Positions 34,876 through 54,752 of a stretch of DNA of 64,000 bases are shown piece after piece. The DNA lies in contig RQYE01000010.1 of NCBI GenBank assembly GCA_004010535.1, positions 1 through 64,000 on the forward strand, given 5' to 3'. Position 1 is the stretch's first letter. The number at the start of each line of letters is the position of its first letter. The notes under the pieces are model-generated. The model was given only the letters and a program-made list of their open reading frames with translations, searched no databases and was not told the DNA's origin. Origin of the DNA: Coriobacteriales bacterium OH1046. Lineage in GTDB: Bacteria > Actinomycetota > Coriobacteriia > Coriobacteriales > Atopobiaceae. The position numbers and the translations under genes were made by a program.

Positions 34876-34936
34876 TCTGGGTATGCGATTCCAGACATAA
34901 ATCGGGCGTCATTTCGTCTCGAATCGCATACCCAGA
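34876..34936. repeat. 16-bp perfect inverted repeat after the ATPase gene
   Basis: TCTGGGTATGCGATTC at 34876-34891 and its exact reverse complement at 34921-34936 enclose 29 bases. It begins 37 bases after the ATPase stop. No T run follows, so it is not a standard terminator, but could act as one in RNA. Confidence 0.7.
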
Positions 34937-40654: not shown

Positions 40655-40692
40655 CCTCCGGGTGACACAGCATCCAATAGGAGCGTCCTGCA

Positions 40693-40933
40693 TGTGCCGG
40701 CTTGACGTTTTGTTCGCTCGATACGCGCCGGTGCTCCGCATAGGTCACGTCGAATCGCGCTGATGGCGAAATATCGCGCTTTTCTGCCGAATCCGGATCT
40801 TGAACTGCCATCGGGCGGAAACTGCATCCCCTTCCTCGCAGGCCAGAGACCCGGAAATGGGAGCCCGTTTTTTCCGGTGTCCCGAATCAGCAAAAAAGCG
40901 CGATATTTCGCCATCAGCGCGATTCGACGTGAC
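40693..40933. repeat. Palindromic element, copy 1
   Basis: Two 44-base arms (40744-40787 and 40890-40933) are inverted repeats with a single mismatch and enclose 102 bases. About 50 bases to the left (TGTGCC at 40693, TCGCTCGAT at 40714, GGTGCTCCGCAT at 40730) recur at the same distances in copy 2. The element lies between convergent genes and could act as a two-way terminator in RNA. Short open frames cross it, but substitutions relative to copy 2 show no codon-position bias, so it is unlikely to be coding. Confidence 0.85.
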
Positions 40934-40951
40934 ACCAGGCTACCCTTATCC

Positions 40952-41905
40952 CTACGGATCACAGACCTTGCAAGGCTCGTAGCCTTGGCTGATCAACTCG
41001 TCGCGGGTCGTCTCCACATCCCAGCGGTTATGGCTCGCGATGGTGTCGACATACCTGCACCAAGAATTGTGGAACTTTCCCGTATTGGTGTTGACGACAT
41101 ACACACGGGTGTTTGCCGGTGCGGGTGCAGACTCAACAACGGGGGGCTCCTCGACCGTGACGGAGAATTCCTTTGTAGTCCGGTTCCCATGGACATCTGC
41201 TGCCACCACGGTGTATGTGTAGGTTCCCGATTGAGAGAGATCGCTTGGGCCGTCGATCCGATACCATCCGCTCTCGTAAAAACGCTCGTTTCCCGCATCT
41301 GTTCCCGCTGTCTCGGGCTCGCTGCTCACGTAGGTGAGGTTGCCATCGACATCGTCGCTGACCGCAACCACGTTGGCTTGAAGATCGAGTGTATCGCCGT
41401 ATGCAACGGTGATCGATCTCTCGCCGATCTCGACGTTCGGTCCATGAGTATCGCGTACGTGGAAGGTGATGACTTGGCTCCGCACGAAGCTATCCAATGC
41501 CATGCAGAACGTGACGGGAGCGTCGCCTATGGTCTGAAGATCGATGCTATCGGATGTGGAAAGGACGATATCGGGGTTGTCGCATTCGACGAAGCGCATT
41601 GGATCGAGCGTCTCGGTTCCGTACTCAAGATAAACCGTCTTGGACTTGAGCACGGCAGCATCCAAAGCATACTGAATCACATGGCTGTTTTCGCTGACAG
41701 CCTCCTCGAACTCTGCAAGCGAGCTTTGGATAAAGCCGGCTCCGCTATTTGCGATCAGCGCAGTCGAATAGGTGGGTTCTTCGGAGCTTGCGGGGATTGT
41801 TTCGGGATCAGATAAAAGGCCTGATAACAGAAAAAGGAGGGACGCGATGAGCACTGCGCCCTTCTTGAACCCAAGACGTTGGAAGAAACTCACGATGGCG
41901 TCCAC
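40952..41905 (-). CDS. Secreted or membrane-anchored protein with C-terminal Cys-pair module
   Basis: 317 residues from GTG 41905 (AAAGGCGAGG before it). A hydrophobic segment at about 14-32 is a signal or anchor. The middle looks like bacterial Ig-type beta domains (VIDGP... SGTYTYTVVAADVHGNRTTK). The last 50 residues, TGKFHNSWCRYVDTI and GYEPCKVCDP, match the small Cys-rich module found at the end of secreted nucleases and surface proteins (H-x-x-x-C...C-x-x-C). No catalytic domain is seen. Its 5' end is duplicated in tandem. Confidence 0.65.
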   Translation of the reverse strand: MDAIVSFFQRLGFKKGAVLIASLLFLLSGLLSDPETIPASSEEPTYSTALIANSGAGFIQSSLAEFEEAVSENSHVIQYALDAAVLKSKTVYLEYGTETLDPMRFVECDNPDIVLSTSDSIDLQTIGDAPVTFCMALDSFVRSQVITFHVRDTHGPNVEIGERSITVAYGDTLDLQANVVAVSDDVDGNLTYVSSEPETAGTDAGNERFYESGWYRIDGPSDLSQSGTYTYTVVAADVHGNRTTKEFSVTVEEPPVVESAPAPANTRVYVVNTNTGKFHNSWCRYVDTIASHNRWDVETTRDELISQGYEPCKVCDP

Positions 41906-41983
41906 GAGCCTCGCCTTTCATCCGTGAACCCAAGACGTTGGAAGAAACTCACGATGGCGTCCACGAGCCTCGCCTTTCATCCG
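41866..41983 (-). repeat. 59-bp perfect tandem duplication over a translation start
   Basis: Two identical 59-base units (41866-41924 and 41925-41983) each contain the ribosome site, GTG start and first codons of the gene above. Because 59 is not a multiple of three, the outer GTG (41964) opens a 24-codon frame ending at 41890, overlapping the true start by 16 bases. Confidence 0.9.
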
Positions 41984-42097
41984 AGGGAGCGAGCTTCTTC
42001 GATGATATGACCTAAGTCAGAAACTCCCGTCTTCCTAGCGCCAAAAGGCAGCGATGATATGTCCGAAAGGCGTATGACCTGGCTAGTGCTCCGTGTA

Positions 42098-42337
42098 TGT
42101 GCCAGTTCGGTGCTCTGATCGCCCGATGTTTGAAGGTGCTCCGCATGCGTCACGTGAAATCGCCCGGATGGCGAAATATTCCGCTTTTCTGTAGATTTTA
42201 GATGCCGAAAAAACGAGGCTGTGGTTCCGATTGCCTGACCAGCGCAAACGCGGGTGTCTTTCCCGCCCGATGGAGATCCGTAACCCAGATTCAGCAGAAA
42301 ACCGAGATATTCCGCCATCCGGGCGATTTCACGTGAC
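42098..42337. repeat. Palindromic element, copy 2 (interior flipped)
   Basis: Arms at 42149-42191 and about 42292-42337 are inverted repeats with a few mismatches, total span between outer ends 189 bases (copy 1: 190). The left flank matches copy 1 in the same direction (TGTGCC at 42098, TCGCCCGAT at 42119, GGTGCTCCGCAT at 42135). The interior matches copy 1 only as reverse complement, for example CCATCGGGCGG and CGTTTTTTC-GG. It lies between the Abi gene and the secreted protein gene. Confidence 0.85.
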
Positions 42338-42384: not shown

Positions 42385-43302
42385 TCAGATCCCGAGCTTG
42401 GAGATGGCTCCGCCCAGCGTAGGCCCCCGCCTGCCGTAGTCCTCCGCGAGCCTTGCGAGCATCTCGTCCAATGCCAGATCATCATCGGCCGTGAGGTAGT
42501 GCTTGACGGCTTCGACGACCTCCGGGAAATCCGCCTCGTCGTTCGCGCCCACGTGTGCGCTCCACAGCCGTTCCTCATGTGCGCAGATGTTGCGTGCGTC
42601 GACGAGGATATCAAGATCGTCGATCATCTCCTGAGGCGTGAGCGAGCGCACGTGCCCGCACGTCTCGCGCACGCGCTCGCATACGGCCCTCTGCTCGGCG
42701 CGGCGCATGAGCGCATAGAAATATTTGAGATTGCCGAAGGTGAGCTCGGTGAAGAGCACCCAGAGCGGCACGCCGCCGTGCACGTCGCGGTAATACTGCA
42801 CGCGTACATCGCTCGGCGTGGGGCTGCCCGTGGTATCGACCACCACACCGTGCGCATGCTTCTCGAGCGTATCGATCATCCAGGCAAGGTCGCGCTCGAA
42901 GTCGCGTCCATCGCGCAGGTACCTGCCTGCGCGCGTGAAACACGAGGGTTTGAGGTAGTCCTCGGTCCCTGGATGGGCCGTGCAGAAGCAATACGAGATG
43001 AGGCTGCGCAGCGTGCTCTCGACAACCATGAGGAAGCGGAACATGATCGCGCGGAGATCCCGGTCGAAGCGGAAGAGCGCGTAGATGTCATCGAAGCGGG
43101 TGCCCTCGAGGTAACGGTCCTCGCCTGCGGAGCGCGACGCCGCAGCATCGAGGAACGGCGCCTTGTAACCGTTGACGATGGCGTAGTAGCCCTCGCGCAG
43201 CAGCGTCTTGGGTGTGCTGGCGTCGCAGATGACGCCGCGCCGCTCGAGTATCCTCACCTGGTCCTCGACGGTGGTGAAGGGCTTGCCGACAATCCCGACC
43301 AT
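42385..43302 (-). CDS. Abi family (AbiD/AbiF-like) protein with HEPN motif
   Basis: 305 residues of the Abi_2 family, PF07751, linked to abortive phage infection in lactococci. Family marks are LLREGYYAIVNGYKAPFL, FDDIYALFRFDRDLRAIMFR and the C-terminal RNICAHEERLW, the R-x4-H motif of HEPN ribonucleases. It probably cuts RNA when triggered by phage. ATG 43302 follows GGCAGGAGGC. No antitoxin-like partner is adjacent. It is divergent from the cold-shock gene. Confidence 0.85.
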   Translation of the reverse strand: MVGIVGKPFTTVEDQVRILERRGVICDASTPKTLLREGYYAIVNGYKAPFLDAAASRSAGEDRYLEGTRFDDIYALFRFDRDLRAIMFRFLMVVESTLRSLISYCFCTAHPGTEDYLKPSCFTRAGRYLRDGRDFERDLAWMIDTLEKHAHGVVVDTTGSPTPSDVRVQYYRDVHGGVPLWVLFTELTFGNLKYFYALMRRAEQRAVCERVRETCGHVRSLTPQEMIDDLDILVDARNICAHEERLWSAHVGANDEADFPEVVEAVKHYLTADDDLALDEMLARLAEDYGRRGPTLGGAISKLGI

Positions 43303-50528: not shown

Positions 50529-50678
50529 GTACCTATGAGCAAATCGGGGTTGTAGGAAGATCCGGGCGCGGATGCCGTTCGGAAAGGCCCTCGGCGCCTG
50601 CAAAAGCCCAGTTGGCATGGAGGCGGGAGCGGAACGCCCCGTCAAATCTTCCTACAACCCCGATTTGCTCATAGGTAC
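50529..50678. repeat. Palindromic element with 33-bp perfect arms
   Basis: Arms at 50529-50561 and 50646-50678 are exact reverse complements (core CTATGAGCAAATCGGGG and GTTGTAGGAAGAT) and enclose 84 GC-rich bases. It differs in sequence from the elements at 40.7 and 42.1 kb but has the same design. It lies between two plus-strand genes. The remaining sequence up to 50980 holds no gene that I can support. Confidence 0.85.
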
Positions 50679-54660: not shown

Positions 54661-54752
54661 GTGACAAGGGGGCAGTGACAAGGGGACAGGTCGTTTGTCA
54701 CGCGCGCAGGCGTGACAAACGACCTGTCCCCTTGTCACTGCCCCCTTGTCAC
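54661..54752. repeat. 43-bp perfect hairpin with 6-base loop
   Basis: Arms 54661-54703 and 54710-54752 are exact reverse complements. Each arm contains two copies of GTGACAAGGGG-type sequence and the block GGGACAGGTCGTTTGTCAC. It lies in the 480-base gap between hydA and cysK. It has the look of a repetitive extragenic palindrome. Confidence 0.9.

Follow-up and report, generated by a model that had tools for sequence, protein, structure and literature searches.

The origin of two opposed palindromes

Two palindromes of closely similar size lie on either side of a 317-aa gene in the 64,000-nucleotide stretch of Coriobacteriales bacterium OH1046 DNA analysed here (the window). Their interiors point in opposite directions next to left flanks that point the same way, and the question that the locus raises is what type of element would give such an arrangement. 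The original prediction offered an invertible switch, a mobile miniature element or a structured RNA family, of which the mobile element fits the results described below and the other two do not. The relevant features of the window are as follows.

40689–40743, + strand: left flank of copy 1; homologous sequence adjoins copy 2 on its left, and a version lies at the same site in the sister species
40744–40933, − strand: element copy 1; arms 40744–40797 and 40880–40933, core 40792–40883 on the − strand (core model R1, E 1.4e-20)
40952–41905, − strand: 317-aa gene between the copies; its product is probably exposed at the surface or secreted and has weak Ig-like matches, and the sister genome has the gene too
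42094–42148, + strand: left flank of copy 2, which aligns in the same direction with that of copy 1
42149–42337, + strand: element copy 2; arms 42149–42191 and 42295–42337, core 42201–42289 on the + strand (core model, E 4.5e-17)
42385–43302, − strand: Abi_2/AbiD-like abortive-infection protein gene, adjoining copy 2
50529–50678, no strand assigned: further palindrome of like build, with 33-bp perfect arms and an 84-bp loop

Remeasurement bears out the pairing of the arms. Those of copy 1 are 54 nt long (93% complementary) in a span of 190 bp, those of copy 2 are 43 nt long (91% complementary) in a span of 189 bp, and the two copies rank among the five strongest hairpins of the window. The predicted common flank is also real: 40689–40743 and 42094–42148 are identical in the same direction at 37 of 55 positions, against 29 of 55 on the same strand and 30 of 55 on the reverse strand for the runners-up in the 64-kb window, and their alignment score of 21 exceeds a shuffle maximum of 13. 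Both halves of the elements match as reverse complements (40744–40856 with 42225–42337 at 71%, and 40862–40933 with 42149–42220 at 75%), and the interiors are therefore opposed, as had been proposed. This inverted match had been described as free of indels, but its halves are slightly offset, so that indels occur somewhere along the full length.

Several other repeats are present in the window. An exact 59-bp tandem duplication (41866–41983) spans the start of the 317-aa gene and is single copy in the sister species; a different palindromic repeat, GTGACAAGGGGACAG...TTGTCAC, lies at 54661–54752 with a relative at L062 8902–9002; and a hairpin at 34876–34936 has a relative in the sister genome (L074).

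A dispersed family with a conserved core and variable arms

The window belongs to a genome of 2.38 Mb in 19 contigs (G000), and its sister species (G001) is represented by an 'Actinomycetes bacterium' MAG. The host had been grouped with Collinsella, but it is not Collinsella proper: it belongs to a genus of five species in another family of the same order. Searching genomes for the arms, as had been suggested, gave about nine copies with these arms in G000 and about six in G001, but across 84,980 genomes the exact arm pattern matched the sister MAG and otherwise only isolated chance sequences. The arms are specific to a subfamily, which is why the pattern found so few genomes, and a sequence-only model of the ~90-bp core, run on the genomes, recovered the rest. 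It detects multiple copies in each of the five species of the genus, and likewise throughout the species sampled from a second genus, g28 (E-values there down to 1e-13), the copy numbers per genome being 'at least' values. A weak match in another genus carries the same interior inside wholly different inverted arms. The core search gave no match in a second family of the order, and the core similarity seen covers two genera.

The element is thus a conserved core of ~90 bp between inverted arms of 30–60 bp, ~200 bp in all (median length 200 bp, median arm 52 bp). Of 50 copies read over their whole length, about 45 have arms that pair better than shuffled sequence; the arms are unrelated between subfamilies yet paired, and a genome holds several subfamilies. 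By a simple global measure in G000 and G001, arms within an element are no more alike than arms of different copies (0.69 versus 0.67), and we make no claim of arm homogenisation. We also discarded the idea that the core is coding sequence, as the copies differ by small indels that leave no shared frame intact (alignment A3).

The elements differ between lineages. Two sites that hold elements in G000 and G001 lack them in a third species, G003, and elements have therefore been gained or lost by lineage. At the sites of copies 1 and 2, G001 retains just the ends of the right arms, so these copies were once there and have since been lost. Neither a target-site duplication nor a clean empty site could be seen, the intergenic regions being too diverged for junctions to be read. 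A search of phages returned nothing, and one of a plasmid collection returned a single Collinsella replicon.

Elements bracket genes of a putative nuclease

The genes between or beside elements repeatedly encode one family of proteins of ~350 aa. The original prediction made no mention of such a partner, but relatives of the palindromes flank these genes. The aligned proteins share an invariant PD..W.......EY.S...H core with conserved acidic and His residues, and the C-terminal domain of the predicted structure (pLDDT 85) resembles I-Bth0305I (Z 10.8) and Vsr (Z 9.2), an assignment that derives from VIA-align, Foldseek alone giving no match at E 0.001. The predicted N-terminal half weakly resembles AbiEi 6y8q (Z 7.0), and we predict that the protein joins a Vsr-type (EDxHD) nuclease domain to an AbiEi-like N-terminus. 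It belongs to no family of Pfam, NCBIfam or PHROGs that would fit, and PADLOC and PHROGs gave nothing useful; the nearest family, by a weak match, is Pfam MTES_1575/DUF559, and MTES_1575 is a Vsr-type restriction endonuclease (PMC3710099). Members are present in 132 of 140 genomes of the family and in 248 of 297 sampled from the order, often in many copies, and the nuclease family appears to be both large and undescribed.

A core element lies no more than 1.5 kb from 18 of the 19 best-scoring nuclease genes, where roughly 3% would be expected by chance from the density of core-model matches; the 18 include all 11 nuclease loci that were used for building neither model. The arms of solo copies follow the nuclease of their own lineage. 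For the solo copies of G000, G001, G003 and G105, and for three of the four in G104, the best arm match is a nuclease flank of the same or a sister genome, with scores of 24–61 where the null reaches 14 at most. The solo copies of G031 and G097 resemble arms of another species (G106), and these only moderately, the nuclease flanks of the two genomes lying at a contig edge or outside the sample; two copies, L121_17124 of G104 and the one in G099, have no counterpart among the sampled nuclease arms.

The association extends to paralogs with other palindromes. A strong palindrome is present at 30 of 39 nuclease flanks in other genera of the family compared with 3 of 40 control windows (p 1e-10), and in a second family at 25 of 40 flanks compared with 4 of 34 controls (p 1e-5; spans near 150 bp), although the controls were shifted by 15–20 kb or were arbitrary or random, unmatched for intergenic content, so that this enrichment is perhaps a little too high. 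Sequence is often common to both flanks of a paralog gene, and a 209-bp palindrome follows the nuclease homologue WP_320677929.1 of Collinsella aerofaciens. The palindrome at 50529–50678 in the window has no relative among the fetched loci and is possibly the cognate element of another nuclease paralog. The loops of the second-family palindromes (L225–L244) often contain a short CACCTGG or GACCTGG followed by a T-rich stretch, recalling CTGACCTGCG of the window-type core.

Elements also adjoin other accessory genes, including HipA, MNT nucleotidyltransferase, RelE/Phd-like and AbiEi/AbiEii-like genes (L119, L120, L123 and L130; named by eye, with the HipA-like protein of L123 alone scanned), and some of the adjacency may therefore reflect regions tolerant of insertion. 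The AbiEi/AbiEii-like pair beside an element in L130 is a different gene from the nuclease. We had entertained the notion that elements form cassettes for any defence gene, until the protein search turned us to the nuclease instead; some defence genes do sit between elements. An HTH–HipA-like pair between two elements with the same arms (L123 2340–4609) is a possible gene cassette. The ortholog in G003 of the Abi_2/AbiD-like gene next to copy 2 also adjoins an element, and then a nuclease gene. At one locus (L148 1658–2785; G000:C4 13422–13944) the nuclease is between core elements in G002 and G003, in opposite orientation, and in G001 between a different palindrome, ACCAAGTAC...GTACTTGGTA; G000 has a remnant only.

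The element-bracketed nuclease gene of G000 (C14:84724–85611) begins at model position 53 and has lost its N-terminus, and the G001 nuclease locus is split in the assembly. The 5' truncation in G000 fits the decayed state of most of the copies in that genome, and copies 1 and 2 are therefore probably decaying relics.

A nuclease-linked mobile repeat and the alternatives

We propose, with a probability of roughly 0.6, that these palindromes are a non-autonomous repeat which together with the Vsr-type nuclease forms a REPIN/RAYT-like pair, the nuclease standing in place of the HUH transposase. Copies 1 and 2 would be solo copies, and their partner a chromosomal nuclease gene bracketed by such elements. 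The putative nuclease would recognise the hairpin, with the arms giving specificity and the core being the common part, and would cut either at the hairpin or at a target; repair would then place a copy of the element at another intergenic site, either way round. The arms would drift together with the nuclease, in the way that REP sequences follow the RAYT transposase. The family and its build, the pairing of the arms, the bracketing of nuclease genes, the arm match of solo with nuclease-flanking copies and the spread of the protein through the order are results of the analysis; mobilisation by the nuclease, and the copying step itself, are what we infer.

The arrangement that first suggested inversion, two copies with a common left flank and opposed cores, is what would be seen if a recombinase flipped the interior of a DNA switch between its arms, and at one G001 locus two contig ends do run into one and the same stretch of 141 nt. 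These contig ends are also explained by an inverted pair of copies such as is present in G000. At four places where G000 and G001 have a copy in synteny (75–90% identical) the core direction is the same in all four; a fifth shared locus has an inverted pair in G000 and, judged by contig ends, in G001. The orientation of core to flank is likewise fixed in a group of copies with shared flanks (L062a/L063/L067/L068), and since these flanks extend for some 40–110 bp the copied unit may sometimes exceed the palindrome. Pairs that flank one nuclease gene are opposed in 8 of 14 cases and parallel in 6, as if copies land either way round, and two opposed copies such as those in the window are then unremarkable. 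A nearby recombinase had been suggested as a check, and none was noticed near the copies among the annotated genes, which are part of the window's genes. Inversion between the arms is thus not borne out, and we give a switch very little credence. Just as poor a prospect is a family of structured RNAs, each with a long stem and a conserved domain. At 16 of 52 arm pairs both sides have changed while the pairing is kept, and the predicted folds are very stable (z about −14), but hairpin-templated DNA repair would also yield compensatory changes, an Rfam search of the region returned nothing relevant, and the core has no conserved secondary structure over 53 copies. Arm mismatches are G-U in 64 cases and A-C in 75; with G-U not above A-C no RNA strand is favoured, which speaks for DNA.

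Explanations in which the palindromes are DNA elements of another type deserve more weight. An ordinary MITE of an unrelated transposase, with nuclease genes gathering in the same insertion-tolerant places, would account for copies that are dispersed, intergenic, lineage-specific and equipped with inverted repeats, and for the other accessory genes that elements adjoin. We consider it unlikely, as matching palindromes bracket one protein family near-universally, across genera whose palindromes are unrelated, solo-copy arms track the local nuclease, and no transposase stood out among the flanking genes that were read. The palindromes could instead be operators, through whose terminal repeats the AbiEi-like N-terminus represses its own gene, with the solo copies as a regulon or leftovers. 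The promoters of AbiEi antitoxins carry inverted repeats to which these proteins bind (PMC7319586), and the modelled similarity of the N-terminal half to AbiEi 6y8q would agree with this. The repeats are present at both ends of the gene, however, not at the promoter alone; elements of ~200 bp that combine 50-bp arms with a conserved core are far above operator size; and the solo copies adjoin unrelated housekeeping genes and vary between species, all of which makes a purely regulatory role improbable.

Comparison with known systems and implications

Palindromic repeats tied to an enzyme are known chiefly as REP sequences with their HUH transposase. The nuclease-linked repeats described here share with REPINs and RAYTs the presence of dispersed, intergenic, hairpin-forming non-autonomous repeats, a chromosomal enzyme gene beside palindromes that appear cognate to it (judged by shared palindrome sequence), and palindrome sequences specific to an enzyme subgroup; a REPtron combines a TnpA_REP/RAYT gene with its cognate REP palindromes and with dispersed REPINs (PMC8049555, PMC8266576). 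They differ in that the enzyme is a predicted Vsr-type nuclease, not an HUH (Y1) tyrosine transposase of the TnpA_REP family, in size (~200 bp with 50-bp arms), and in having a conserved centre with variable arms, whereas the REPIN spacer is diverse; no GTAG or CGTC tag was evident beside the palindromes on inspection of the alignments. With another enzyme fold, a conserved centre and variable arms, the pair resembles the REPtron arrangement but is no member of it.

The nuclease appears to share its catalytic-domain fold, and conserved acidic and His residues, with the EDxHD homing endonuclease I-Bth0305I and with Vsr, according to the model. It differs from these in its fusion to an AbiEi-like N-terminus, and in being a free-standing chromosomal multigene family bracketed by palindromes, with no intron or intein seen. 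The weak fold similarity of the N-terminal half to AbiEi recalls the AbiE type IV toxin–antitoxin system, but the cassettes here are of a single gene, without an adjacent AbiEii nucleotidyltransferase toxin and with a nuclease domain instead. As in MITEs, the elements are short and non-coding with inverted repeats and several subfamilies; here, however, the interior is shared while the arms vary freely yet stay paired, and no known transposase shares their ends. In the literature covered on REP/RAYT, DUF559, Vsr-like proteins and Coriobacteria, which is incomplete, we found no report of a palindrome–nuclease pairing.

On a wider scale, we suggest tentatively, at somewhat under even odds, that selfish elements of this kind occur throughout the Coriobacteriales, in which an EDxHD nuclease recognises hairpins and causes their copying, paralog and palindrome co-diverge, and no HUH chemistry is involved. 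If true, a second and chemically different pairing of enzyme and palindrome would mean that bacteria acquired hairpin-copying systems more than once. A large nuclease family that has many copies per genome in gut-type actinobacteria, and no Pfam or NCBIfam entry, would also acquire a likely role, and many natural enzyme–repeat pairs would be on hand for studying the co-evolution of recognition.
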